Source: Nitrospirae bacterium GWC2_57_13
GTDB lineage: Bacteria > Nitrospirota > UBA9217
DNA: 37,656 nt
Assembly (NCBI GenBank): GCA_001805055.1
Contig: MHDZ01000017.1
Location: 13,357-51,012 of the forward strand
Direction: 5' to 3'
In this document: positions 3,149 to 24,815 of the stretch, in pieces
Layout of the letters: every line of letters begins with the position of its first letter
How positions within the stretch are numbered: position 1 is the stretch's first letter
Translations under genes and position numbers: made by a program
The notes under the pieces: model-generated
The model's input: only the letters and a program-made list of their open reading frames with translations
The model's database searches: none
Told to the model about the DNA's origin: nothing

Positions 3149-4327
3149 ATGAGCAAAGATGGAAAAACACCGATGCTTGATGAATTGGAAAAAGGCGCAT
3201 GGCCGAGTTTCGTAAAAGAGATCAAGAAGGCCGCTGTCAAGAAGGACTCGGCAAAGGACCTTCTCGGCATTCTCGAAAGATCCTACAAGGACAAGATCGG
3301 CCACTGGAAGCACGGCGGCATCGTGGGCGTGCTCGGCTACGGCGGCGGCGTCATCGGCCGCTACTGCGACCTGCCTGAGGAATTCCCCGGCGTCGCTCAT
3401 TTCCACACCGTTCGTATCAACCAGACCGCCGGCTTCTTCTACACCTCCCAGGCGCTGCGCGAGCTCATGGATATCTGGGATGAGCATGGAAGCGGCCTGA
3501 CCAACTTCCACGGCTCCACGGGAGACATGGTCCTTCTGGGAACCACCACGGACCAGCTCGAGCCCATTTTCGCCAAGACCACGGCGAAGGGTTGGGACCT
3601 CGGCGGTTCCGGTTCCTGCCTCCGCACACCCAGCTGCTGCGTGGGCATGGCCCGCTGCGAATTTTCCAATATCGACGCCATGGACATCTGCGACAATCTT
3701 ACCCATGAGTTCCAGGACGAGCTTCATCGTCCCGCATTCCCCTACAAGTTCAAGATCAAAGTATCCGGCTGCGCCAATGACTGCACGGCTTCCATTGCCC
3801 GCGCCGACCTCTCGATCATCGGCACCTGGAGAGACACGATCCGTATCGACCAGGCCGAAGTGAAGATCGCAGCCAAGGACATGGACATCAAGACCGAAGT
3901 GACCGACATGTGCCCCACCCACTGCATGAGCTGGGACGGCAGCACGCTCAAGATCGCCGACAAGGACTGCAACCGCTGCATGCACTGCATCAACCGCATG
4001 CCCAAGGCCCTGCGTCCCGGCAAGGAAAAAGGCGCGACCATCCTGCTCGGCGGCAAGGCCCCGATCGTGACCGGCGCGCTGATGAGCTGGGTCATCGTTC
4101 CCTTTGTGAAGCTTGAGAAGCCCTATGACAATCTCAAAGACCTCATCCGCAAGCTCTGGGAGTGGTGGGACGATCACGGCAAGAACCGCGAGCGCATCGG
4201 CGAACTCGTTGACCGCATGGGGATGAAGTCCATGCTCGAAGCAACCGGTCTGCCGCCCGTGCCGCAGATGGTGAAAGCTCCGAGAACGAACCCCTATGTG
4301 TTCTGGAATCCTGAAGACGTGAAATAA
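3149..4327 (+). CDS. dsrA: Dissimilatory sulfite reductase alpha subunit DsrA
   Basis: DsrA pairs with DsrB in the cytoplasmic alpha2beta2 siroheme enzyme that reduces sulfite and forms the DsrC trisulfide. The 392 residues are somewhat shorter than the Desulfovibrio protein. The siroheme/[4Fe-4S] cysteines are visible as CLRTPSC near residue 157 and GCANDC near residue 208. The inserted ferredoxin domain carries CPTHC near 255 and CNRCMHC near 274. The stretch [11 protein letters not shown] is typical of DsrA. The ATG has a strong ribosome site (AAGGAGGG) 8 bases upstream. dsrB follows after 27 bases with its own GAGGAGGA. The dsrD neighbour argues for a reductive-type enzyme. Sequence type (reductive versus oxidative DsrAB) should be settled by a tree. 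Confidence 0.97.
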
Positions 4328-4354
4328 AAAATTCCTTGAGGAGGAATACCTATA

Positions 4355-5428
4355 ATGGCTGACAAACCGAAAAGAATAACAGACATTGGAGCGCCTCATT
4401 ACAGCAAATTTCTCCCTCCCGTGATCGCCAAGAACTACGGGAAGTGGAAGTATCATGACATGATCAATAAGGGCGTGATGAAGCACGTGTCCGAGACGGG
4501 CGACGAGCTCTACACGGTCCGCATCGCAACGCCGCGCCTTGTGAGCACCGACTACATCCGCGAGATGTGCGACGTGGCCGAGAAGTTCAGCGGCGGGCAC
4601 CTGCGCTGGACAACGCGGCATAACATCGAGTTCTTCCCGGCCAAGGACCAGGTTGATCCGCTCCAGGCCGAGCTGAAGAAGCGCGGCCACATGGTCGGCG
4701 GCATCGGCTACGGCATCAGCAACGTGGTGCATACCCAGGGCTGGATCCACTGCCATACGCCGGCAACGGACGCATCGGGAGTTGTGAAGGCAGTCATGGA
4801 CGAACTGCATGAGTACTTCACGACCAAGTCCCTGCCCGCCCGGGTCAGGATCGCGCTGGCCTGCTGCCTCAATATGTGCGGGGCCGTGCATTGCTCCGAC
4901 ATCGCCATCCTCGGCGTTCACCGCAAGCCGCCCCGGGTTCTCGATGCCACGCTGGCGAACCAGTGCGAGATCCCCACGACGATCGCTTCCTGCCCCACGG
5001 GCGCCATCAGCCCGAACCCGGCAATGAAGTCCGTGAAGATCAAGGAAGAGCGCTGCATGTACTGCGGCAACTGCTACACCATGTGCCCGTCCCTGCCCCT
5101 TGCCGACGCGACGGGCGGCGGCATCTCCATCTGGGTGGGCGGCAAGGTGTCGAACGCCCGCGGCGTGCCCCGGATGTCCAAGCTGGCCATCCCGTTCCTT
5201 CCGAACAATCCGCCCCGGTGGCCCGAGGTCGTTAAGGCCGTGAAGCACCTGGTGGAAGTTTATGCCAAGGATGCGCGCAAGCACGAGCGCATGGGTGAGT
5301 GGATCGAGCGGGTCGGCTGGGAGCGGTTCTTCAAGCTGACCGGACTGCCCTTCACCTATCAGCACATCGACGATTTCACCTTTGCCCGTGAGACGTTCCG
5401 CATGACCCCCACCTTCAAGTGGGAGTAG
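4355..5428 (+). CDS. dsrB: Dissimilatory sulfite reductase beta subunit DsrB
   Basis: This is the partner of DsrA; in known enzymes the catalytically active siroheme sits at the beta-linked site. The protein has 357 residues. It shows the [12 protein letters not shown] region, the cysteine-rich [14 protein letters not shown] stretch, and a later [15 protein letters not shown] segment. A ferredoxin domain ([12 protein letters not shown]) begins near residue 234. The C-terminal end ([11 protein letters not shown]) is conserved in DsrB. Translation starts at an ATG with GAGGAGGA upstream. It is co-transcribed with dsrA and is followed after 16 bases by a strong terminator-like hairpin. Expression of dsrAB can therefore be set higher than that of the downstream dsrD-N block. 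Confidence 0.97.
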
Positions 5429-5444
5429 GATGCAGTTACTGATG

Positions 5445-5482
5445 ACCGGCCTCCCGGACAGGTGTTCGGGGGGCCGGTTTTT
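5445..5482 (+). terminator. Strong intrinsic terminator between dsrB and dsrD
   Basis: ACCGGCCTCCCGGAC pairs with GTTCGGGGGGCCGGT across a 4-nt AGGT loop, giving a 15-bp stem with two wobble pairs. It ends directly in TTTTT. It lies between the dsrB stop and the dsrD ribosome site and would attenuate read-through. Confidence 0.85.
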
Positions 5483-5517
5483 CGAGCATGCTTAGTGAAA
5501 TTCTGAGAGGAGCCCCC

Positions 5518-5748
5518 ATGGACGCTGCGGAACTGCAGAAAAAGATATACGACATGGTAGAAAAGAGCCAGGGCAAAAAGAAGCTGAAGCCCGGGGACAT
5601 CACGAAGGCGATGGAAGCCGAAGGCGCAGAAAAGGCTGATATCAAAGCGGCGCTTCGTGAGCTGATAGACGGAGGCAGGCTGGTGTATTCGTACTTCGGC
5701 GGCACTGCCGTCGAGATCCCCCATAAGGAAGGTTCGGCAAATCCCTGA
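5518..5748 (+). CDS. dsrD: DsrD, allosteric activator of sulfite reductase
   Basis: DsrD is a small winged-helix protein that stimulates DsrAB activity and marks reductive sulfur metabolism. The 76 residues fit the usual length of about 78. The pattern of an N-terminal helix, a GDITKAM helix and the wing region GRLVYSYFGGTAVEI agrees with the family. The track ORF starts 10 codons earlier, but the ATG at 5518 has GAGAGGAG at proper distance and gives the family N terminus. It overlaps dsrN by one base (TGATG), so the two are translationally coupled. It follows the terminator hairpin after dsrB, so either read-through or a separate promoter is needed. No clear promoter is seen in the 35 bases between. 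Confidence 0.9.
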   Translation: MDAAELQKKIYDMVEKSQGKKKLKPGDITKAMEAEGAEKADIKAALRELIDGGRLVYSYFGGTAVEIPHKEGSANP

Positions 5749-7142
5749 TGCGACGGATCCCGAGGGTGGTGTTTTCGGCCGTCCGCGGAGGGTCGGGGAA
5801 GACGATCATTTCCATCGGGGTCGCCGTTGCCTGGCGGAAGCACGGCAGGCGGATCGGCGTTTTCAAAAAAGGTCCTGACTTCATCGATGCCGGGTGGCTC
5901 GGCGCAGCAGCCGGCAGCGACTGTTATAACCTCGATCTCTTTCTGATGGAGCCCAGCGCGATCCTCCGTTCCTTTGCGGAACATACCATGGGGGTCGACG
6001 CAGCAGTGATCGAGGGGAACCGGGGGCTCTTCGATGGGTTGGACGATGCGGGCACGTACAGTACCGCCCGCCTCGCCCGCCTCCTCGCTGCCCCGGTTGT
6101 TCTTATCATAGATTGCACCAAGGTCACGGCGACCGTTGCCGCCCTGGTGCTCGGATGCCGTGATTTCGATCCTGCTGTGAGCCTTCAAGGTGTGATCCTG
6201 AACCGCGTCGCCTCAGGCCGGCAGGAATCGGTGATCCGGAAGGCCGTGGAAGGGGCCACGGGAATACCTGTTGTAGGCGCAGTCCCGCGGCTGCGGCAGG
6301 AGGAGTTCCCGGAACGACACATGGGGCTTACCCCCTTCCAGGAGCATCCTGAAGTCAACCAGGCGATCGCGGCAGCTGGAGCGATGGCGGAAAAATATAT
6401 CGATCTGGACGCTCTTTGGAATATCGCATCAGAAGCGCCTGACGTGGAAGCGCCCGAGGCCCTCATCGGGCAGGGCCCCCGGGGCGATTCGTTCGTAAGG
6501 GTCGGCATCATCCAGGACCGGGCCTTTCAGTTCTATTATCCCGACAACCTGGAAGCGCTCAGAAAGCAGGGCGCCGAACTGGTGCAGCTCAACGCGTTGA
6601 GCGATGCCGCGCTTCCCGGGATCGACGCCCTGTATATCGGCGGCGGTTTTCCTGAAACACAGGCCGCGGAACTGGCTGCGAACGACAAATTCTGCGCGTC
6701 GCTCAGAGCAGCAGTAGAACGCGGGCTTCCGGTCTACGCGGAGTGCGGAGGCCTCATTTACCTCGGCAGAAGCCTGCAGGTCGACGGCAAGACCTATCCC
6801 ATGGCGTCAGTGCTGCCGGCGGATTTTGTGCTCGAAAAGAGACCGCAGGCGCATGGGTATACCGTACTCGAAGCAGGTGAGAATCCCTTCTTCCCTGTTG
6901 GCACCGTGCTGAAGGGTCATGAGTTTCATTATTCCCGGATCGCGAATCATGACGAGCTTTCGGGAATGGGGCTGCGGATGCAGCGCGGCGTTGGCATCGA
7001 CGGCAAAAACGACGGCTTGGTTTATAAGAATGTGCTGGCCGCCTATACCCATCTTCATGCCCTCGGCGCACCGGCCTGGGCAGAGGGTATCGTGCGAAAA
7101 GCGCGGGAGTACAGGAAGAGAGCAGGGCAGGAGGCAGGGTGA
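5748..7142 (+). CDS. dsrN: DsrN, cobyrinic acid a,c-diamide synthase-like siroheme amidase
   Basis: DsrN is expected to amidate siroheme for DsrAB, using glutamine and ATP in the cytoplasm. The 464 residues match the CobB/CbiA family. An N-terminal ATP-binding domain carries a P-loop (RGGSGKT, residues 13-19) and EGNRGLFDG near residue 85. A C-terminal glutamine amidotransferase domain has the nucleophile Cys333 in YAECGGL and a late HEFHYS motif. Its place inside the dsr operon, overlapping dsrD and the next ORF by one and four bases, favours DsrN over a cobalamin-pathway CobB. No other cobalamin genes are near. The start ATG overlaps the dsrD stop, indicating translational coupling. Confidence 0.88.
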   Translation: MRRIPRVVFSAVRGGSGKTIISIGVAVAWRKHGRRIGVFKKGPDFIDAGWLGAAAGSDCYNLDLFLMEPSAILRSFAEHTMGVDAAVIEGNRGLFDGLDDAGTYSTARLARLLAAPVVLIIDCTKVTATVAALVLGCRDFDPAVSLQGVILNRVASGRQESVIRKAVEGATGIPVVGAVPRLRQEEFPERHMGLTPFQEHPEVNQAIAAAGAMAEKYIDLDALWNIASEAPDVEAPEALIGQGPRGDSFVRVGIIQDRAFQFYYPDNLEALRKQGAELVQLNALSDAALPGIDALYIGGGFPETQAAELAANDKFCASLRAAVERGLPVYAECGGLIYLGRSLQVDGKTYPMASVLPADFVLEKRPQAHGYTVLEAGENPFFPVGTVLKGHEFHYSRIANHDELSGMGLRMQRGVGIDGKNDGLVYKNVLAAYTHLHALGAPAWAEGIVRKAREYRKRAGQEAG

Positions 7143-7501
7143 GCACGGAGTCACGGCAAGGCAAAGGAGTCTACTGTCCGTTCTGTTCCAGTCCGCTCGC
7201 GCGGCCCAGGCCGATCCAGGCCGGGGTCGGCGCCACGGTAGACGGCGGCGCGTGCTCCTGCGGGGCGCGTTATCTGACGGATCCCACGGGTAAGAACGTG
7301 GGCGAGTTGATGCTGCAGGCGCTCACCATGATGGGGGAGGCCCTGTCGCGGGGCCCCTTTGATCTGGCTCAGGGTGTTGATTACGATGAGGTCATCTTGA
7401 GCTATGATTGGAGAATGCATCGTTCTCTCGGCGAGCCCGAGGGCTACATGGACGGACACGGCAGGCTCTATATGTTCCGCGAGAGAAAAAATACACCCTG
7501 A
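7139..7501 (+). CDS. Uncharacterised zinc-ribbon protein embedded in the dsr operon
   Basis: I do not recognise this 120-residue protein as a named Dsr component. It starts with GTG inside the dsrN stop (GTGA, 4-base overlap), which strongly suggests translational coupling. Near the N terminus a CPFC pair (residues 13-16) and a CSCG pair (39-41) could form a zinc ribbon or a small metal site. The rest is acidic and aromatic, with YDEVILSYDWRMHRS and a C-terminal GHGRLYMFRER. No signal peptide or membrane segment is seen. dsrC follows after 114 bases. Position suggests a role in Dsr maturation, siroheme loading or regulation, but this is inference. DsrT, another small dsr-locus protein, is a possible alternative that a profile search would decide. 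Confidence 0.75.
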   Translation: MSTESRQGKGVYCPFCSSPLARPRPIQAGVGATVDGGACSCGARYLTDPTGKNVGELMLQALTMMGEALSRGPFDLAQGVDYDEVILSYDWRMHRSLGEPEGYMDGHGRLYMFRERKNTP

Positions 7502-7560
7502 TCAGAGCGGCGAGGGAAGTCTTCAGAAGCGCTGCGCAGGGAAGACAGATGTTCGGGAAA

Positions 7561-7589
7561 TTGAGACTCGTGAAGAGTGTATCAATTAT
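7561..7589 (+). promoter_or_regulatory. Weak candidate promoter ahead of dsrC
   Basis: TTGAGA is followed after 17 bases by AATTAT, 27 bases before the dsrC start. This 114-bp gap is the largest inside the dsrD-N-C block, so a separate dsrC promoter is plausible. The match is modest. Confidence 0.25.
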
Positions 7590-7615
7590 CAATTCAATGA
7601 AAGGGGTACAAAACA

Positions 7616-7951
7616 ATGGCAATGGTTGATGTCAAAGGGAAGTCAATCGAAGTGGATGAGGACGGCTTTCTGGCCAACCTCGATGACTGGAGCATGGACG
7701 TGGCGAACTATTTCGCCGAGGTCGAGGGGATCGATATGTCCGACCAGCACTGGGAAGTCGTGAATTTTCTGCGCGAGTATTACAAGCAGTACCAGATCGC
7801 GCCGATGATCAAGATCCTGGTGAAGGAGATCGGCAAGAAGCTCGGCCCCGACAAGGGCAACACCAAGTACCTCTATGAGCTGTATCCGGGCGGACCGGCA
7901 AAGCAGGCCTGCAAGATCGCGGGTCTTCCGAAGCCGACAGGCTGCGTGTAA
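7616..7951 (+). CDS. dsrC: DsrC, sulfur-carrier substrate of sulfite reductase
   Basis: DsrC accepts the sulfur of sulfite as a trisulfide between its two C-terminal cysteines and passes it to the DsrMKJOP complex. The 111 residues include the conserved flexible C-terminal arm. It carries both redox cysteines, 10 residues apart (CKIAGLPKPTGCV), the second being the penultimate residue. This distinguishes true DsrC from TusE-type or RspA-type relatives. The helix-rich body (WSMDVANYFAEVEGIDM, HWEVVNFLREYY) is typical. AAAGGGG precedes the ATG; a second ATG two codons later is possible. It closes the dsrD-N block and is followed by an intrinsic terminator. Confidence 0.96.
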   Translation: MAMVDVKGKSIEVDEDGFLANLDDWSMDVANYFAEVEGIDMSDQHWEVVNFLREYYKQYQIAPMIKILVKEIGKKLGPDKGNTKYLYELYPGGPAKQACKIAGLPKPTGCV

Positions 7952-8097
7952 GACATCGCACGCCACGGGCCGCATTTTGCCGCCCGGGCGAATTCGCCGC
8001 TGGAGCACTTTTGCAGACCTCCGGTACCGATGGGCGGGGAAGGTTAAGCCGGCATCGGCTTCGGGGCTGCAAGGGCGGCATCCATACAGGGCGAAGG

Positions 8098-8132
8098 CAG
8101 GGGATAGTTGAGAGATTATCCCCTGTTTTTTT
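8098..8132 (+). terminator. Intrinsic terminator after dsrC
   Basis: CAGGGGATA pairs perfectly with TATCCCCTG across a 10-nt loop, followed by seven T. It lies 147 bases past the dsrC stop and 34 bases before dsrH. Confidence 0.9.
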
Positions 8133-8165
8133 ATCTACCAGACATCTCCAGGGAGGTGATTTATT

Positions 8166-8465
8166 ATGAAGCTGGCCGTGTTTCTGAGCGACTGGGATCG
8201 GACCGAAGCGACCCTCGAAAGACTGAAGGCTGATAAGATGGGCGTCATTCTTGTCGGCAACGGCATCTATCATGCCGTGCTGAAGGCCGGGGGCAAGGAC
8301 TCACCGGTGCTCTCCACAGCGGGCGCGAGCTTTTACGCGCTGGCCGACGACCTTGAGACGCGCGGGTTTACCGCGGCGAACGTGAATTCCAAGGTCAAGG
8401 TCGTGAGCTACGGCGATATTGTCGACTTGATCATGAAGGACTACGAAAAGACCGCGTGGCTGTAA
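8166..8465 (+). CDS. dsrH: DsrH/TusB-family sulfur-relay protein lacking cysteine
   Basis: This 99-residue protein matches DsrH/TusB along its length. It has an N-terminal strand, an LVGNGIYHAV loop, a central FYALADDLETRGF block, and a C-terminal VVSYGDIVDLI...TAWL close to the family ending. In purple sulfur bacteria DsrEFH form a hexamer that hands sulfur to DsrC. No cysteine occurs anywhere in this protein, so the family cysteine seen in phototroph DsrH is absent and this subunit is probably structural. GGGAGGTGA precedes the ATG. It follows the dsrC terminator and starts the dsrH-E-F block, with the gene order unlike the dsrEFH order of Allochromatium. Confidence 0.78.
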   Translation: MKLAVFLSDWDRTEATLERLKADKMGVILVGNGIYHAVLKAGGKDSPVLSTAGASFYALADDLETRGFTAANVNSKVKVVSYGDIVDLIMKDYEKTAWL

Positions 8466-8567
8466 CTGTTCGAAGGATGAGGGACGAGGGAAGAAGATGC
8501 ATCCGTCGTCCGAGCGAGACGCGCGCGACCATCTCTCGTCCATCGATTTTTAAAAAAGGAGGATACC

Positions 8568-8927
8568 ATGGGAGAATTGACCTTAGGTGTTTTCCCCTCG
8601 CTCGTCGGTTCCATGACGCTTGATTTTTCCTTCAGGCTTGCGGATGCGGCGATGGAGAAGGGGCACAAGGTGAACATGTGGCTGTCCGGGAACGCGGTCA
8701 TGATGGCCAAGAAGGGCCAGAAGGCGTTCAAGGATTACTCGCATAATGAAAAAAAGATGAAGGAACTGATGGGCAAGGGGATGGAGATAACCGTGTGTGA
8801 GGCCTGTGCCGAGGCGCGGGGCTACCACAAGGAAGACACGCCGGAGGGAATGAAGCGGGCCAGCATGGACTGGTATCTGGCGAAGACCGTCAAGACCGAC
8901 CGGCTGCTCCATATAGGAGGTGAGTAA
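8568..8927 (+). CDS. dsrE: DsrE/TusD-family sulfurtransferase
   Basis: This 119-residue DsrE-fold protein is expected to carry sulfur as a persulfide and to exchange it with DsrC. The family cysteine region is present as ITVCEACAEARGY (cysteines near residues 74 and 77), aligned with the active cysteine of TusD/DsrE. A short conserved ending (TDRLLHIGGE) follows. AAGGAGGA lies just before the ATG. Its TAA overlaps the ATG of dsrF by one base, so E and F are translationally coupled. In a reductive setting the DsrEFH role is not established. Proposed roles are sulfur trafficking during sulfur oxidation, disproportionation or biosynthesis. Confidence 0.82.
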   Translation: MGELTLGVFPSLVGSMTLDFSFRLADAAMEKGHKVNMWLSGNAVMMAKKGQKAFKDYSHNEKKMKELMGKGMEITVCEACAEARGYHKEDTPEGMKRASMDWYLAKTVKTDRLLHIGGE

Positions 8928-9340
8928 TGGCTGCTGTTAATCTGCTGTTCGTGGTACAAAGGCCGCCGTATAAGAGCGAGAATGCCCGCCTTGCGCTGAC
9001 CCACGCCATCGCGAGCCAGACGGCCGAGATCTATATGGATGACGGCGATTCCGTGGTGCCCATCGTTGCCTTTGTGGGAGACGGGGTGCTGAACGCCGTG
9101 AAGGGCCAGAAGGCCATGGAGCGCTACGGCGTGACAAGCACGGAAATGCATATCAAGAGCAGCCTGATGATCGATATGCCCATCTGGGTCTGCAAGGAAG
9201 ACATGGAGCGGCTGGGGCTCAAGGAAGATCAGATGATCACCCATGCCGAAGAGCTCGGCGCCGACCTCAAGACGAAGTTCGTGTCTTTCGCCGAGATCCA
9301 GAAGGAGATGGAAGGGACGAACCATCTTCTCTTCTTCTAG
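8927..9340 (+). CDS. dsrF: DsrF/TusC-family sulfur-relay protein
   Basis: This 137-residue DsrE-fold protein is the third subunit of the presumed DsrEFH complex. It has an N-terminal VNLLFVVQRPPY strand-loop, a VAFVGDGVLNAVKGQK block typical of TusC/DsrF, and a single cysteine in PIWVCKEDMERLGL at the expected loop. The ATG overlaps the dsrE stop and has AGGAGGTG upstream. It is slightly longer than the usual size of about 120. A strong terminator follows within 10 bases, closing the dsrH-E-F block. Confidence 0.8.
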   Translation: MAAVNLLFVVQRPPYKSENARLALTHAIASQTAEIYMDDGDSVVPIVAFVGDGVLNAVKGQKAMERYGVTSTEMHIKSSLMIDMPIWVCKEDMERLGLKEDQMITHAEELGADLKTKFVSFAEIQKEMEGTNHLLFF

Positions 9341-9348
9341 AACACCCT

Positions 9349-9376
9349 ACCCTGCAGCAGCGGCTGCAGGGTTTTT
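9349..9376 (+). terminator. Intrinsic terminator after dsrF
   Basis: ACCCTGCAGC pairs perfectly with GCTGCAGGGT across the loop AGCG, followed by a T-rich tail. The 10-bp perfect stem begins 8 bases after the dsrF stop. Confidence 0.92.
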
Positions 9377-9424
9377 CTTTGGATGCCGGCCGTAAGCGGC
9401 CGCAGGGAGAGCGCAATTCCGGAT

Positions 9425-9937
9425 ATGGACCTGAACGCATTGCTGAAAGAGAAACAGCCCGCCATCGTCGAAAAATGGTTCGAAACGGTCCTGGCGGCCT
9501 ATCCGGAAAATACCGCCAATATATACCGGAAGTCGGAGGCCCAGTTCACGAACCCCTTGGGCTACAACGCCCGGCAAGGGGTGGAAGGCCTCTTCGATGC
9601 GCTCCTGAAGGGCGTCATGCTTGAGGAAGCTTCGGGCTTTCTCGATAACATCGTGCGGATCCGGGCGATCCAGGAATTCCCGCCCTCCCAGGCCCTTTCA
9701 TTCATCTATGAGCTCAAGAAGATCGTACGCGCTGAGATCGGCAAAGCCGTTGCCGAGCAGGGTCTGACGGAGGATCTCGATTCCTTCCTGTCGACCATTG
9801 ACGACCTGGCCCTCTTTGCGTTCGATCTTTATATGGGATGCCGCGAAAAGCTCTTCGAGATCAAGGTGAATGAAATGAAGAACAGCACCTTCCGGCTGAT
9901 CCAGCAGGCGAACAGGGTCGGCGGAAAGCAGGAATGA
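9425..9937 (+). CDS. RsbRD N-terminal-like domain protein upstream of dsrM
   Basis: This 170-residue helical protein resembles the RsbRD_N domain (non-heme-globin-like N termini of RsbT co-antagonists, PF14361). It has an initial LLKEKQPAIVEKWFETVL helix, an FTNPLGYN turn, and a long VRIRAIQEFPPSQALSFIYELKKI helix pair. No STAS domain or kinase domain is attached. I recall similar stand-alone genes next to dsrM in some sulfate reducers, but have not checked this. The track ORF starts 14 codons earlier; the ATG at 9425 gives the family-like N terminus, and an AGGGAGA lies upstream at a rather long distance. dsrM follows after 52 bases, so it probably heads the dsrMKJOP operon and may act as a sensor or assembly factor. 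Confidence 0.7.
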   Translation: MDLNALLKEKQPAIVEKWFETVLAAYPENTANIYRKSEAQFTNPLGYNARQGVEGLFDALLKGVMLEEASGFLDNIVRIRAIQEFPPSQALSFIYELKKIVRAEIGKAVAEQGLTEDLDSFLSTIDDLALFAFDLYMGCREKLFEIKVNEMKNSTFRLIQQANRVGGKQE

Positions 9938-9989
9938 ACGTCTGATCACCAGGATGCTCGTATCTTAATCAAAGAAACGAGGTAGCGAT

Positions 9990-10985
9990 ATGAAAGTTCT
10001 CGTGTCCTTTTTTGCAGTGCTCGTCCTTGCCTTGGTCGCCTACGCAGGAGTGGAGGCGGCAAATCTGCAGTATCTGTTCGGGGTCATCATCCCCTACGCG
10101 GCCTTTGTGACCTTCCTTGCCGGTGTGGTGTTCCGCATCCTGAAGTGGGGGTCATCACCCGTTCCCTTCCGGATCCCGACCACCTGCGGGCAGCAGAAGA
10201 CCCTTCCCTGGATCAAATCAAGCAAGCTCGAAAATCCATCGGGATTGCTCGGCGTGATCGCCAGAATGGCGTTGGAAGTGCTCTTCTTCCGCTCCCTCTT
10301 CCGGAACCTCAGGACGCAGTTGAGCGACGGTCCGCGTCTCGCCTACGGAGAGGCAAAATGGCTCTGGCTAGCGGGTCTGGCCTTTCACTGGTCTTTCCTG
10401 ATCATTCTGCTCCGGCACCTCCGGTTCTTCATGGAAAAGGTCCCCCTGCCGATCACGATGATCGAGGCACTCGACAGCTTTCTCCAGCTCGGCGCGCCGC
10501 TCCTGTACATGACCGATGTGGTGCTTCTGCTGGCCGTCACGTATCTCTTCATCAGGCGGGTCGGCATCCCGCAGCTCCGGTACATATCGCTCATCAATGA
10601 TTACTTCCCGCTCTTCCTGATCCTCGGCATCGCCGTGACAGGCGTACTGATGCGGTATTTCTTCAAGGTGGACGTGGTGGGTGCGAAGATGCTGGCCATG
10701 AGCCTGATCAGCCTGAAGCCCGCGCTTCCTGAGGTCCAGATCGGTGCGCTCTTCTATACCCACCTGTTCCTCCTGAGCGTGCTCTTCGCCTATTTCCCCT
10801 TCAGCAAGCTCACGCACATGGCAGGCGTCTTCCTGAGCCCCACGCGGAACATGGCGAACAACAGCCGTGCGAAGCGGCATGTCAATCCCTGGAACTACCC
10901 GGTCCATGTTCATACGTACCAGGAGTATGAGGACGACTTCAGGGAAAAAATGAAAGGCGCCGGGCTGCCGGTAGAAAAGGAGTAG
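9990..10985 (+). CDS. dsrM: DsrM, membrane cytochrome b subunit of DsrMKJOP
   Basis: DsrM is the NarI-like diheme cytochrome b that exchanges electrons with menaquinone and feeds DsrK. The 331 residues contain about six hydrophobic segments, the first two directly at the N terminus. Candidate heme histidines occur in LAFHWSFLIILLRHLRFF and FYTHLFLLSVLF. The C-terminal cytoplasmic tail (KRHVNPWNYP) is typical of DsrM and probably contacts DsrK. A partial ribosome site (ACGAGGT) precedes the ATG. dsrK follows after 2 bases, so the two are tightly coupled. Confidence 0.92.
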   Translation: MKVLVSFFAVLVLALVAYAGVEAANLQYLFGVIIPYAAFVTFLAGVVFRILKWGSSPVPFRIPTTCGQQKTLPWIKSSKLENPSGLLGVIARMALEVLFFRSLFRNLRTQLSDGPRLAYGEAKWLWLAGLAFHWSFLIILLRHLRFFMEKVPLPITMIEALDSFLQLGAPLLYMTDVVLLLAVTYLFIRRVGIPQLRYISLINDYFPLFLILGIAVTGVLMRYFFKVDVVGAKMLAMSLISLKPALPEVQIGALFYTHLFLLSVLFAYFPFSKLTHMAGVFLSPTRNMANNSRAKRHVNPWNYPVHVHTYQEYEDDFREKMKGAGLPVEKE

Positions 10986-10987
10986 AC

Positions 10988-12607
10988 ATGGCTAAACTTC
11001 CGAATCCCGAAGAATTGTCCAAGATTGATTACGCTCCGCCTTCCAAGGGGTGGATGGACACGCCCACGGAGTTCAAGCCGGGCATGTTCTGCCATGGGTC
11101 AAAGCCCAAGAGCCTGGAGACCCTGGAATTCCCGAACCCCCGGGAGTGGCGGCCTGCCGACGTTGACTGGAAACTGCCCGAGAACTGGAAGCAGATCCTG
11201 CTGGAAGGCATTGCCGACCGGCTCAAGAAATACCGCTCATTCCGGCTCTTCATGGATATCTGCGTACGCTGCGGCGCCTGCGCCGATAAGTGCCACTTCT
11301 TCATCGGCACGGGTGATCCCAAGAACATGCCGGTGCTGCGGGCTGAGCTGATCCGCTCCGTCTATCGCAAGGAATTCACCATAGCCGGAAAGATCTTCGG
11401 CAAGATGGCCGGAGCGCGCGAGCTCACCGTTGATGTGCTGAAGGAATGGTGGTACTACTTCTTCCAGTGCACGGAGTGCCGCCGCTGCTCGGTCTTCTGC
11501 CCCTACGGCATCGACCAGGCTGAGATCACGATCATCGGCCGGGAGCTTTTGAACCTGCTCGGGCTGAACATCGAATGGATCGCCGGTCCTGCGGCGAACT
11601 GCTACATGAAGGGGAACCATCTCGGCCTCGAGCCCCACACCATTGTGGGCAACCTCGAATATATTCTTGATGACATCGAAACCGTGACAGGCAAGAAGAT
11701 CAAACCGACCTTCAACCGGAAGGGCGCGGAGATCCTCTTTGTCACCCCCTCGGGCGACCTGTTCGCTGATCCTGGCACCTATACCGCCATGGGCTACCTC
11801 ATGCTGTTCGAAGAGCTGGGCCTCGATTATACCTGGAGCACCTACGCTTCCGAAGGCGGCAACTTCGGTTTCTTCACGACCAATGAACTGGCAAAGCGGC
11901 TGAATTCCAAGATCTATGCCGAAGCAAAGCGGCTGGGCGTAAAATACATCATCGGCGGCGAGTGCGGCCATATGTGGCGCGTCATCCATCAGTACATGGA
12001 CACCTGGAACGGTCCAGCCGACTTCCTCGAAGTGCCCAAATCACCGATCACCGGAACGGTCTTCGAGAATGCAAAGGCCTCGAAGATGATCCATATCGCC
12101 GAATTCACGGCCGACCTGATGAAGAACGGCAAGCTGAAGCTCGATCCGAGCCGGAACGACCATCTTAAGGTGACATGGCACGACTCGTGCAACACTGCGC
12201 GCGGCATGGGTATCCTTGAAGAACCCCGCTATGTGCTGAAGAACGTGGTGAACCACTTCCACGAGATGCCCGAGGACACCATTCGGGAGAAGACCTTCTG
12301 CTGCGGCAGCGGTTCGGGCCTGAATGCCTCGGAGGACATGGACCTCAGAATGAAGGGCGGCTTCCCCCGGGCCAACGCGGTGAAGTTCGTGCACGACCAC
12401 TACGGTGTGAACATGCTCGCCAACATCTGCGCCATCGACCGTGCGTCGCTTCCGCCCCTGATGGACTACTGGGTCCCGGGTGTGAAGGTCGCCGGCCTGC
12501 ATGAGCTGGTGGCGAATGCGCTGATCATGAAGGGAGAAAAGGAACGGACGACGGACCTGCGCGGTGAACCCCTTCCGGGCAAGGAACAGAAGGAGGAATC
12601 GGCATGA
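10988..12607 (+). CDS. dsrK: DsrK, HdrD-like iron-sulfur catalytic subunit
   Basis: DsrK is the cytoplasmic, membrane-associated subunit thought to reduce the DsrC trisulfide. The 539 residues carry two ferredoxin-type cluster motifs, CVRCGACADKCHFF and CTECRRCSVFCPYG, in the first third. The C-terminal half resembles HdrD, with GGECGHMWR, WHDSCNTARG and a CCGSGSG cysteine-rich motif for the special [4Fe-4S] site. The final tail is charged (KEQKEES). Its stop overlaps the dsrJ start (ATGA). Length and motifs agree with DsrK of sulfate reducers. Confidence 0.95.
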   Translation: MAKLPNPEELSKIDYAPPSKGWMDTPTEFKPGMFCHGSKPKSLETLEFPNPREWRPADVDWKLPENWKQILLEGIADRLKKYRSFRLFMDICVRCGACADKCHFFIGTGDPKNMPVLRAELIRSVYRKEFTIAGKIFGKMAGARELTVDVLKEWWYYFFQCTECRRCSVFCPYGIDQAEITIIGRELLNLLGLNIEWIAGPAANCYMKGNHLGLEPHTIVGNLEYILDDIETVTGKKIKPTFNRKGAEILFVTPSGDLFADPGTYTAMGYLMLFEELGLDYTWSTYASEGGNFGFFTTNELAKRLNSKIYAEAKRLGVKYIIGGECGHMWRVIHQYMDTWNGPADFLEVPKSPITGTVFENAKASKMIHIAEFTADLMKNGKLKLDPSRNDHLKVTWHDSCNTARGMGILEEPRYVLKNVVNHFHEMPEDTIREKTFCCGSGSGLNASEDMDLRMKGGFPRANAVKFVHDHYGVNMLANICAIDRASLPPLMDYWVPGVKVAGLHELVANALIMKGEKERTTDLRGEPLPGKEQKEESA

Positions 12608-13029
12608 GATTGTATAACGGAGGCCTGATCATTACGGGGATCGTCGTGTTCCTGGCACTGGCGACATTTCCGTTCTATTACAATATCGGCAAGGCAAATG
12701 CCAAGCCCGATATCAAGCTCGAGCCTGCCATCAAGATGAGCGAGGAGCGCTATGGCAAGAAGCAGTGCGTCGAGCCGAAGGAGTGGATACGCCGGGAGCA
12801 CATGGTGCTTCTGAACCACTGGCGCGACGCTGTGGTTCGCGATGAGAACCGCGGGTACCTCAGCACGGACACCGGCACCCGGTTCAATATGAGCCTGCAG
12901 AACGAGTGCATGCAGTGCCATTCGAGCAAGAAGAACTTCTGCGACCAGTGCCATAATTACATGGCGGTAAAGCCCTTCTGCTGGGACTGCCATATCGCAC
13001 CGACGGAAAAGGAGGAGGCGAGATCATGA
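12604..13029 (+). CDS. dsrJ: DsrJ, periplasmic triheme cytochrome c
   Basis: DsrJ is the triheme c-type cytochrome of the DsrMKJOP complex. The 141 residues begin with an uncleaved signal anchor (GLIITGIVVFLALATFPFYY) followed by a periplasmic domain. Three heme sites are visible near the C terminus: CMQCH (Cys102), CDQCH (Cys113) and CWDCH (Cys126). Known DsrJ has unusual Cys/His ligation for one heme. The start overlaps dsrK by four bases and the stop overlaps dsrO by four, showing translational coupling. Confidence 0.94.
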   Translation: MRLYNGGLIITGIVVFLALATFPFYYNIGKANAKPDIKLEPAIKMSEERYGKKQCVEPKEWIRREHMVLLNHWRDAVVRDENRGYLSTDTGTRFNMSLQNECMQCHSSKKNFCDQCHNYMAVKPFCWDCHIAPTEKEEARS

Positions 13030-13871
13030 GCATGAAGAGGAGAGACTTTCTGAAGATCGCCGGCATATCCTCCATCCTTAGCGTGGGGGCCAAGATAGCC
13101 GAAGCGACCCATCCTGCCTGGGTCACCGGTCCGGACCCCAAGCAGCTGGTGCCCAACAAGCAGGCGCTGTCTGCAAAGCGGTGGGCCATGATCGTGGATA
13201 TGACAAAGTTCAAGACCGAGGCGGACACGCTGAAGGTCATCGATGCCTGCCACCGGGCGCACAATGTGCCGGATTTCCGGACGCCCGATGGGAAGGTGGA
13301 CAAGAAGCTCGAGGTCAAGTGGATATGGCAGGCCGGGTTCGAGCGCGCCTTCCCGGGCCAGGACAACAAGTACATGAGCGAGCATCTCAAGGATATGCCG
13401 TTCATGGTCCTCTGCAATCACTGCGACAATCCGCCCTGCGTACGTGTCTGCCCCACGCAGGCGACCTACAAGCTGAAGAACGGCATCACGATGCAGGATA
13501 TGCACCGCTGCATCGGCTGCCGATTCTGCATGGCCGGCTGCCCCTATGGCGCCCGGAGCTTCAACTGGGTCGACCCCCGGAAAGCCGCCAATCTGGATGT
13601 CAAGAGGGGCGGCAAGCTGAACAACGAATATCCCCAGCGGACCAAGGGCGTTGTGGAGAAGTGCACCTTCTGCACTGAACGGCTCCAAATCGGAAAGATG
13701 CCGGCATGCGTCGAGGCGGCCCCCAAGGGCGCCCTGCTCTTCGGCGACCTGGAAGACCAGAACTCGGAGATACGCAAGATCATTACGACCAGGTACACCA
13801 TCAGGCGCAAGCCCGATCTGGGCACAGGGCCGGCTATCTACTATCTCATAGGAGGAAGCGACCATGCTTGA
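13026..13871 (+). CDS. dsrO: DsrO, periplasmic iron-sulfur subunit with Tat signal
   Basis: DsrO is the ferredoxin-like periplasmic subunit that links DsrJ and the membrane subunit DsrP. The 281 residues start with a twin-arginine signal (KRRDFLKIAG). The cluster motifs of the NrfC/HybA type follow: CNHCDNPPCVRVCP, CIGCRFCMAGCPYG, and CTFCTERLQIGKMPACVEA. Gene overlaps on both sides (4 bases with dsrJ, 8 with dsrP) agree with a single translation unit. The family usually binds three or four [4Fe-4S] clusters. Confidence 0.94.
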   Translation: MSMKRRDFLKIAGISSILSVGAKIAEATHPAWVTGPDPKQLVPNKQALSAKRWAMIVDMTKFKTEADTLKVIDACHRAHNVPDFRTPDGKVDKKLEVKWIWQAGFERAFPGQDNKYMSEHLKDMPFMVLCNHCDNPPCVRVCPTQATYKLKNGITMQDMHRCIGCRFCMAGCPYGARSFNWVDPRKAANLDVKRGGKLNNEYPQRTKGVVEKCTFCTERLQIGKMPACVEAAPKGALLFGDLEDQNSEIRKIITTRYTIRRKPDLGTGPAIYYLIGGSDHA

Positions 13872-15030
13872 GAAAGCGCTTGAGGGAAGTAAAAAATACT
13901 GGGCATGGCTCATCCTTCTCAGTGCCCTGGCTTCCGTGGGATTCTACTTCTATCTCCAGCAGTATGCATACGGCCTGGGGCTTACAGGAATGCACCGCGA
14001 CGTTTCCTGGGGGCTCTATATCGGCCAGTTCACGTTCCTTGTCGGCGTTGCCGCCTCGGCCGTGATGCTCGTGATCCCGTACTATCTGCATGATTTCAAA
14101 AAGTTCGGGAAGATCGTGATCCTGGGCGAGTTCCTGGCCATCGCGGCCGTGCTGATGTGCATGCTGTTCATCATGGCCGATATGGGCCAGCCGGGGCGGT
14201 TCATGAACATCATGCTGCATCCCTCGCCGCAATCGGTCATGTTCTGGGACTTTCTCGTGCTCGCGGGCTATCTTGCGCTGAACGCCGTGATCGGCTGGGT
14301 GACCCTCGGCGCGGACCGGAAAGGCATGCCTCCACCCACGTGGATCAAGCCCTTCATCTACCTTTCGATCCCCTGGGCCATCAGCATCCATACGGTCACG
14401 GCTTTCCTGTACGCGGGCCTTCCGGGCCGGCACTTCTGGCTCACCGCCATCATGGCTGCGCGGTTCCTGGCCTCGGCCTTTGCCGGGGGCCCGGCGCTGC
14501 TGCTGATGCTGGCGCTGATCGTGCGGAAGCTGACCAAGTTCGACCCCGGCAAGGAGCCCATCCAGGCCCTGGCAAAGATCGTCACCTATGCCATGTTCGC
14601 CAATGTCTTCTTCCTTGCACTGGAGTTCTTTACGGCCTTCTACAGCCAGATTCCGGGACACATGCATGCCTTTGACCACCTCTATGCGCACAGCGCAACG
14701 CCGCTTGTGCCCATGATGTGGGTTTCCACGGCCTTCGCCCTGATCTCACTGGGGATGCTGTTCTTCCCGGCGATCAGAAAGAACGAGACAACCCTGGTTA
14801 TGGCCTGCATCATGCTGTTCACGTCGCTCTGGATCGATAAGGGCTTCGGCCTGGTGATCGGCGGATTCGTGCCGAATCCTTTCGACGAAGTGCATGAGTA
14901 CTGGCCTACCCTCCCCGAGGGTATAATAACTGTCGGCATCTGGGCCATCGGTTTCCTGGTCCTGACCATGCTCTACAAGGTGGCCATATCGGTGAGGGAG
15001 CAGACAGCAGGGGTCGAGATCGATCACTAA
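13864..15030 (+). CDS. dsrP: DsrP, NrfD-like integral membrane subunit
   Basis: DsrP is the NrfD-family membrane protein that binds the quinone on the periplasmic side and works with DsrO. The 388 residues consist almost entirely of about ten hydrophobic helices. A GMHRDVSWGLYIGQFTFLVG segment near the N terminus is typical, and many membrane-embedded charged residues occur. It overlaps dsrO by eight bases, with GGAGG inside the end of dsrO. It is the last gene of the membrane complex and is followed 26 bases later by a terminator. Confidence 0.94.
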   Translation: MLEKALEGSKKYWAWLILLSALASVGFYFYLQQYAYGLGLTGMHRDVSWGLYIGQFTFLVGVAASAVMLVIPYYLHDFKKFGKIVILGEFLAIAAVLMCMLFIMADMGQPGRFMNIMLHPSPQSVMFWDFLVLAGYLALNAVIGWVTLGADRKGMPPPTWIKPFIYLSIPWAISIHTVTAFLYAGLPGRHFWLTAIMAARFLASAFAGGPALLLMLALIVRKLTKFDPGKEPIQALAKIVTYAMFANVFFLALEFFTAFYSQIPGHMHAFDHLYAHSATPLVPMMWVSTAFALISLGMLFFPAIRKNETTLVMACIMLFTSLWIDKGFGLVIGGFVPNPFDEVHEYWPTLPEGIITVGIWAIGFLVLTMLYKVAISVREQTAGVEIDH

Positions 15031-15056
15031 GGGCTGTCGTACTGTGTACTATCGGC

Positions 15057-15087
15057 ACCCGCCCCTCCCGGGGCGGGTAACCTTTTT
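15057..15087 (+). terminator. Intrinsic terminator after dsrP
   Basis: ACCCGCCCC pairs with GGGGCGGGT around a TCCC loop (9-bp stem), followed after AACC by five T. It closes the dsrMKJOP operon. Confidence 0.88.
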
Positions 15088-15116
15088 CCGGTGCTTTGAG
15101 GCCGGTCTCCGGCCGC

Positions 15117-15197
15117 GCGATGAAAGAGAACAGTGTTTTGCTTCATCGCAGTGCCGGGAAATTTACTGTTGATTTTGCAGGATTGAGCGAGTAGTAT
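15117..15197 (+). promoter_or_regulatory. dsrP-ferredoxin gap: hairpin and candidate promoter
   Basis: The 315-bp gap holds the dsrP terminator, then a perfect 8-bp hairpin GCGATGAA/TTCATCGC (15117-15149). After it lies a promoter-like pair TTGATT-N17-TAGTAT (15169-15197). Transcription would start near 15204, leaving about 140 nt before the ferredoxin. The rest of the gap shows nothing clear. Confidence 0.4.
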
Positions 15198-15345
15198 TAC
15201 GACAACCCGCCTCCGCGCTTCCGGCAGGATCCACCGGAAAATACGCTTACCCGAGCAGGCTTCCGAGCAACGGCGAGTGTCCTCTGCGGTGAATTGTGCG
15301 TTGGCTAGAAGAGGCGGAACATTTCAGCAAGGAGGAACAGGAAGC

Positions 15346-15531
15346 ATGTACATGGTAACCATAGACAATGGCAAGTGTGACGGTGACGGAACCTGTGCGA
15401 ACCTTTGCCCGCAGGCCGTTTTCGCAATCGAAGGCGGAAAGGCCGATCCGGTCAACATGTCCGAGTGCATCAATTGTTTGACCTGCGTTGAGAACTGCCC
15501 GCAGAACGCGATCACCATTACCGAGATGTAA
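15346..15531 (+). CDS. Small dicluster ferredoxin with Asp in cluster I motif
   Basis: This 61-residue ferredoxin carries two cluster motifs. Cluster II is classical (CINCLTCVENCP). In cluster I the sequence CDGDGTCANLCP has Asp where the second cysteine normally sits, as in Pyrococcus-type and some Desulfovibrio ferredoxins, where the cluster converts between [3Fe-4S] and [4Fe-4S]. The track ORF starts 23 codons earlier, but GGAGG at 15331 is well spaced for the ATG at 15346, and the ORF extension shows no domain. It lies just after dsrMKJOP and could donate electrons to DsrAB or a related reductase. It is flanked by its own candidate promoter and a strong terminator, so it is likely monocistronic. 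Confidence 0.9.
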   Translation: MYMVTIDNGKCDGDGTCANLCPQAVFAIEGGKADPVNMSECINCLTCVENCPQNAITITEM

Positions 15532-23811: not shown

Positions 23812-24150
23812 ATGACTAAATCTATTGAATCGATCCTGGCCTGGCTGGTGATGACGGTCTTCGCCGTTGCCGCGGGTTTCATCGTGTGGTTCCTCGGCGC
23901 GACCTACTCCCGCCACTATGCGGCCAAGACGTGGGTGGAAGTTCCTGCCGCAGTGCGGAGCTTCGACATACGAACGAGCCGTTCGCGCAGCACAGGTTCC
24001 TCAATGCCGACCATCCAAAGCCGCCTGAGCGCCCTGTACACTTATGAATTCGAAGGGACGAGCGACACCGGGGACCGCGTGGATTTCAGCTTCGGCTCCG
24101 ACAACTTCAGCGGCGCGCGGCGCTCCGAGCAGCTTGCCTGGCTGATGTAA
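23812..24150 (+). CDS. DUF3592-like membrane protein, C-terminally short
   Basis: This 112-residue protein has an N-terminal membrane segment (SILAWLVMTVFAVAAGFIVWFL) and then WVEVPAAVRSFDI and LYTYEFEG, which resemble the extracytoplasmic part of DUF3592 proteins. The frame stops after GARRSEQLAWLM. Full family members go on with a strand and usually a second membrane helix, so this copy seems truncated. No continuation is seen in the other frames of the next 100 bases. It may be a decaying gene. No ribosome site is obvious before the ATG; AGGAG lies about 14 bases upstream. The function is unknown. Confidence 0.5.
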   Translation: MTKSIESILAWLVMTVFAVAAGFIVWFLGATYSRHYAAKTWVEVPAAVRSFDIRTSRSRSTGSSMPTIQSRLSALYTYEFEGTSDTGDRVDFSFGSDNFSGARRSEQLAWLM

Positions 24151-24258
24151 GGGGAACCAGTGAGCAGAGAGGTCCATGCTCAGCGTCGCATACAGTCGTT
24201 GCGACACGTATATACGAAGTGTCGGACATTGCAGCTTGCGTTGTAAGGAGGGCGTTCG

Positions 24259-24414
24259 ATGGCAGAGGATTCAGTGTTGTGTTCTGCCTGTGGTCTGCCG
24301 CTCAAGGACTGCATCTGTTGTCCTGAATGAGGCCATGTATGCCTCCTGGACCAGGGGGAACTGTACTGTCCTGTCTGTTTTCCCGAGCCGAAGGAGACGG
24401 AGGATGGCCCGTGA
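24259..24414 (+). pseudogene. Cys-rich zinc-ribbon ORF interrupted by in-frame TGA
   Basis: An ATG with a strong ribosome site (AAGGAGGG) opens a 23-codon frame encoding CSACGLPLKDCICCPE, then TGA at 24328-24330. The same frame goes on for 27 codons as GHVCLLDQGELYCPVCFPE and ends at a second TGA. Read across the stop, the product is a 51-residue double zinc ribbon. The TGA falls exactly where the second cysteine of a CPxC knuckle would be (CPE-stop-GHVC). Explanations are a recent nonsense mutation (TGC or TGT to TGA), a sequencing error, or UGA recoded as selenocysteine. A 5-bp hairpin (GAGGC-N7-GCCTC) starts right at the TGA, but it is shorter than usual bacterial SECIS elements. It is too short for the ORF track. 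Confidence 0.45.
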
Positions 24415-24578: not shown

Positions 24579-24815
24579 ATGAGGTATACGGGCATCCTGT
24601 TGGCGCTTTTTCTGCTGCTCGGTTACGCCCCTGTTTTTGGCAGCGAGGCGGAAAAAACAGCGAAAGAGGGTTTCCGGCAGGTCCATCAGGGTATGAAAAA
24701 GGTAACCAAGTCCGTCCATAAGAAGGCAAAGAAGGACACCCGCATCATCGACAAGAACGCGAAGAAAACCTGGGAAAAAGCGGGCGACGATATCAATAAA
24801 GCGACGAAGGATTGA
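24579..24815 (+). CDS. Small lysine-rich secreted protein
   Basis: I do not recognise this 78-residue protein. It has a clear signal peptide (RYTGILLALFLLLGYAPVFGS), with cleavage probable near residues 21-23. The mature part, about 55 residues, is very rich in lysine with regularly spaced acidic residues (KEGFRQVHQGMKKVTKSVHKKAKK), likely an amphipathic helix. It has no cysteine. GAAGGAGG precedes the ATG. It has a candidate promoter upstream and a terminator downstream, so it is probably a single-gene unit. It could be a periplasmic helical protein; no function is assigned. Confidence 0.72.
   Translation: MRYTGILLALFLLLGYAPVFGSEAEKTAKEGFRQVHQGMKKVTKSVHKKAKKDTRIIDKNAKKTWEKAGDDINKATKD

Follow-up and report, generated by a model that had tools for sequence, protein, structure and literature searches.

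A TGA codon within a cysteine-rich reading frame

The analysed window, a stretch of 37,656 nucleotides, contains a short cysteine-rich reading frame at 24259-24414 (+ strand) that is interrupted at codon 24 by an in-frame TGA (24328-24330, + strand), which raises the question of whether the gene ends at this codon or is read through it. Translation yields MAEDSVLCSACGLPLKDCICCPE, a stop, GHVCLLDQGELYCPVCFPEPKETEDGP and a second, terminal stop that is also TGA (24412-24414). On the basis of its homologues, the TGA at codon 24 is very probably read as selenocysteine (Sec), forming a CPEU motif, and the product would be a selenoprotein of 51 residues, MAEDSVLCSACGLPLKDCICCPEUGHVCLLDQGELYCPVCFPEPKETEDGP, where U stands for Sec. 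The strong ribosome site described in the initial annotation is present as AAGGAGGG (24245-24252, + strand), about 6 nt upstream of the ATG, and its count of 27 codons from the TGA to the second stop is correct. The source genome is a draft of 3.3 Mb. Two small neighbouring ORFs (23812-24150 and 24579-24815) are without a Pfam match, and beyond them the flanking genes are priA and smpB.

Distribution and conservation of the family

A search with the read-through protein against 99 related genomes recovered close homologues; in several genera these carry this TGA, in others Cys. A wider scan of 84,980 species, in which one of the two patterns favoured Cys forms, returned 44 loci, mostly from Nitrospirota. 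Some of these loci bore the titles Deltaproteobacteria or Proteobacteria, and the taxonomy label placed several of them in Myxococcota. In a profile search of Nitrospirota genomes, the family was present in 92 of 396 (E<=1e-4). Among the genomes typed at the site, 58 have TGA and 27 have Cys, two being counted under both. The TGA-form genomes span many genera and families of Nitrospirota, and the family sequences stem mostly from metagenome-assembled genomes. TGA and Cys were the only states observed at this codon, which bears out the placement of the TGA at a cysteine position. Invariant positions in an alignment of 43 sequences were C8, C11, C20, U/C24, H26, C28, C37, P38, and C40.

Among 52 distinct TGA forms, mismatches after the TGA amounted to 0.14, 0.18, and 0.48 at the first, second, and third codon positions, respectively, and median pairwise dN/dS was 0.095. 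Past the final stop, the corresponding mismatches were 0.75, 0.75, and 0.74 and similarity was gone. Purifying selection acts before as well as after the TGA but not beyond the second stop; the low dN/dS, the codon-position pattern and the end of similarity at that stop indicate that selection sees read-through up to it.

Cys and TGA copies occur together in genomes G208 (L124/L181) and G365 (L127/L145). The TGA copy of G208, L181, looks decayed, with an extra TAA and a lost Cys, as if the Cys copy had replaced it, and G063 holds a remnant of the family only. One Cys form (L167, G359) has a different in-frame TGA at the position of its relatives' Gly (DY-TGA-EEYC), for which a genuine nonsense mutation or an error seems the likely cause. 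The short protein tree does not settle whether Sec gave way to Cys or Cys to Sec.

A SECIS-like hairpin specific to the TGA forms

In the bacterial SECIS model (PMC13188914), the apical loop has 3-9 nt with G in its first two positions and lies 16-37 nt downstream of the UGA. Folding and a family-wide test identified a SECIS-like hairpin of this bacterial type, CCUCCUG-GAC-CAGGGGG, at 24342-24358 (+ strand). It has a stem of 7 bp and the loop GAC, or GGACC in an open form. The apical loop lies 17-18 nt after the UGA (18 nt for the loop GAC) with G in its first positions, and both its location and the G agree with the model (PMC13188914). Across the TGA forms, the hairpin is placed at 16-18 nt.

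In the source gene, the hairpin reaches -10.3 kcal/mol, where synonymous recodings average -5.1 (z -2.8). When nt 10-33 after the codon were set against protein-preserving recodings based on each locus's own codon usage, mean z was -2.19 in 52 TGA forms and 0.01 in 32 Cys forms (Mann-Whitney p = 2e-11; this and the other hairpin p-values are optimistic because related sequences share ancestry and are not independent). When the test was repeated with codon usage pooled, z at nt 13-36 was -1.87 for TGA forms and 0.07 for Cys forms, and the signal was confined to this interval, being absent at nt 2-18 and nt 37-60. A screen for strong hairpins was passed by 50 of 52 TGA forms and 16 of 32 Cys forms.

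The difference in stability arises from synonymous choices at stem positions. The Gly codon GGG was used in 43 of 51 TGA forms but in 5 of 31 Cys forms (p = 1e-9), and the Leu codon CTG in 43 of 49 and 7 of 27, respectively (p = 8e-8), while codons of the other invariant residues differed little between the two forms. Cells of the stem 16-20/27-31 were paired in 90% of cases in TGA forms and 56% in Cys forms. The Cys form L045/L115 of G381, whose genus includes the TGA forms of G103 and G125, retains CTG GAC ATG GGG; we infer that these codons are what a recent Sec-to-Cys change would leave.

Applied to the 52 TGA forms, RNAalifold returned a consensus of other, weak pairs and not a hairpin of the 24342-24358 type, as the register of the stem slips between sequences. 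For the same reason strict column-wise covariation, which was not above shuffles, is uninformative. Rfam returned no match. The hairpin named in the initial annotation, GAGGC-N7-GCCTC, does exist (24329-24345, -6.0 kcal/mol), but its role as a SECIS was rejected since its loop is too near the UGA for the bacterial model and it has no excess stability (mean z -0.4 in TGA forms versus -0.06 in Cys forms, p = 0.12). The SECIS-like element specific to TGA forms is the next hairpin downstream, at 24342-24358.

Selenocysteine machinery

The search for selA, selB, selC, and selD proposed along with the Sec site found all of them, and the set is complete in the source genome. selA (599 bits), selB (367 bits), and tRNA-Sec (66 bits) lie within ~6 kb on one contig (C33). 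selD (G000:C76:25022-25939) has one in-frame TGA inside, so that SelD of this genome is probably a selenoprotein as well. All other TGA genomes checked carried at least one gene of the Sec machinery. Seven of them had no detected selA (G003, G007, G141, G216, G315, G325, and G391), as is expected of fragmentary assemblies; each has tRNA-Sec and/or selB, and selD was present in all five that were tested.

The family and selA occurred together in 82 of the 92 family-bearing genomes of the 396 Nitrospirota. Within this phylum, selA did not differ between the forms (51 of 58 TGA and 22 of 25 Cys), and genome co-occurrence alone therefore discriminates poorly. G036, which has a Cys form, is without selA, selB, selD, and a tRNA-Sec over the cut-off, and selA was absent in five of eight Cys-form genomes whose loci bear the titles Deltaproteobacteria, Proteobacteria or uncultured. 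In G006, which belongs to the same family as the source genome, two full-length selA matches (contigs C42 and C71) were observed, and selB likewise matched twice over the cut-off, yet no member of the 50-residue family was found.

With this machinery, Sec-tRNA(Sec) would be made by SelA and SelD. SelB would recognise the hairpin that starts ~11 nt after the UGA and deliver Sec at codon 24, and the ribosome would carry on for 27 codons past the UGA. Machinery and signal are visible in the sequence, and decoding is deduced from them.

Weighing other explanations of the TGA

The Sec reading of the site is strongly supported by the TGA/Cys exchange among homologues, the sel genes of the source genome and the hairpin specific to TGA forms, of which the RNA evidence is the decisive one. 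The initial annotation had held a nonsense mutation to be at least as likely. On this view, a former Cys protein would be truncated by the TGA, through a nonsense mutation or as a decaying pseudogene. TGA is one base from TGC and TGT, and real decay does occur in the family, both in L181, the second copy of G208, and in the remnant of G063. However, 58 genomes from many genera share this TGA, and the sequence past it is conserved across genera with the median dN/dS of 0.095 given above and a selected hairpin behind it, which makes a nonsense mutation very improbable here. The single base that parts TGA from TGC or TGT could also have been misread in sequencing or assembly, but the TGA is shared by independent assemblies of many species and the source gene has the SECIS-type codons CTG and GGG, which are mostly missing from Cys forms; we regard such an error as extremely improbable. 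Insertion of another amino acid (e.g., Trp) through a changed code or a suppressor tRNA would formally yield the same read-through. Against it stand Cys as the only alternative residue at the site, the use of TGA by the gene itself for termination, and the presence of Sec machinery together with a SECIS-like hairpin, and its probability is likewise close to nil.

The UGA might instead act as a regulated stop, with Sec insertion as the switch and selenium being sensed through the short product or through its ratio to the long one. The late position of the UGA would give a discrete peptide of 23 residues in which the first knuckle pair is complete, but nothing points to a function of the short form on its own, and many lineages swapped Sec for Cys and thereby have a constitutive long form. 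This replacement speaks for the long form as the one that counts, and we consider a regulated stop very unlikely. The explanation favoured as a whole, which joins a selenoprotein family, Sec decoding through SelB and the hairpin, cysteine knuckles and a redox role, is held with high confidence.

Predicted fold and possible function

The gene would thus encode a selenoprotein whose family is small and stand-alone, with members of ~50 residues that occur mainly in anaerobic Nitrospirota. The fold is predicted to be built on the cysteine knuckle pairs C8xxC11/C18xC20 and C21xxU24/C37xxC40, probably coordinating one or two ions of zinc or iron. The second pair, C21-x2-U24 ... C37-x2-C40 (24319-24381, + strand), resembles zinc-ribbon/rubredoxin knuckles, and its region includes the invariant H26 and C28. 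Its putative role in metal binding is suggested by weak profile matches of the C-terminal half to RNA polymerase zinc ribbon and rubredoxin chains (PDB profile E 0.0014) and by weak Pfam matches to Zn_Ribbon_1/RUBY_RBDX (best E 0.0017, under the cut-off). None of the 43 members had a Pfam or NCBIfam match over the cut-off. The AlphaFold model was weak (pLDDT 69.6, pTM 0.37), and a fold search with it gave no match.

Sec-24 occupies the second position of the CPEU knuckle, where it would stand in for the cysteine kept by other members. Judged from the motif and the known chemistry of CxxU selenoproteins, the family most likely has a redox-active CxxU, a selenol/thiol pair in or beside the second zinc or iron site, with a cytosolic role in thiol-disulfide or sulfur-related chemistry; this would be the weakest step of the proposed mechanism. 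It is possible, though we put it forward only tentatively, that Sec-24 is itself a metal ligand in a Zn or Fe site of three Cys sulfurs and one Sec selenium. If true, this would be a natural selenolate-ligated centre of the zinc-ribbon/rubredoxin type, for tuned redox or metal release.

Gene neighbourhoods are not conserved across the family (dnaX-like, yajQ, priA/smpB, fabH/plsX, and others), and function is consequently without support from gene context. The association of the family with dsrA was strong (84 of 92) but is confounded with selA and lineage and was not used as functional evidence. The window itself holds a dissimilatory sulfite reductase-type cluster at 3149-15531, with dsrA identified by TIGR02064 (G000:C17:16532-17674) and with dsrB, DsrC/E/F/H-like and DsrMKJOP-like ORFs recognised by eye. 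Given this cluster, reduction or oxidation of sulfur compounds is probably part of the organism's metabolism.

Comparison with known selenoproteins and implications

The motif of the family has no entry in a 2026 catalogue of 119 prokaryotic selenoprotein families (PMC13188914), and the new families reported with deep-Sep have domains that differ from this 51-residue family (PMC12013277). An earlier description was not found in the open-access literature searched and may exist elsewhere. We call it a new selenoprotein family, without a curated model or an entry in the 2026 catalogue. The fold of the FmdB family is of the zinc-ribbon type. The putative regulatory selenoprotein of that family, which is listed in PMC13188914 (TIGR02605), resembles the new one as a small zinc-ribbon-type protein with predicted Sec at its knuckles, but its two Sec lie in UxxU, and none of the FmdB NCBIfam models is matched by a member of the new family.

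The CxxU redox selenoproteins (SelW-like, AhpD-like, and GrdA; PMC13188914) share the CxxU motif, the exchange of Sec and Cys and a SECIS directly after the UGA. In contrast to these, the new family has ~50 residues and nine invariant or nearly invariant Cys/Sec positions, and nothing in it suggests a fold of the thioredoxin or AhpD kind. The dual CXXC motif small protein (OS_HP3/DW, NF041197) is also a small cysteine-rich selenoprotein of unknown function, but its motif is RxU/GxU and NF041197 does not match the new family. Rubredoxin, the C-terminal domain of rubrerythrin and RNA polymerase zinc ribbons show a similar CxxC(G)...YCPxC pair, with weak matches over residues 18-44. The new family differs from them by Sec as the second ligand, a further CxxC...CxC pair at the N-terminus and the invariant H26 and C28, and it scores under every curated cut-off.

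The family is common in anaerobic Nitrospirota yet stands outside curated models and the 2026 catalogue; standard annotation, which stops at the TGA, would miss the gene as a fragment of 23 residues. With Sec and Cys forms in close relatives and hairpin codons that come and go with the TGA, it offers a good natural test of the gain and loss of Sec and its SECIS, and the predicted placement of Sec in a metal knuckle poses a chemical question that can be tested.
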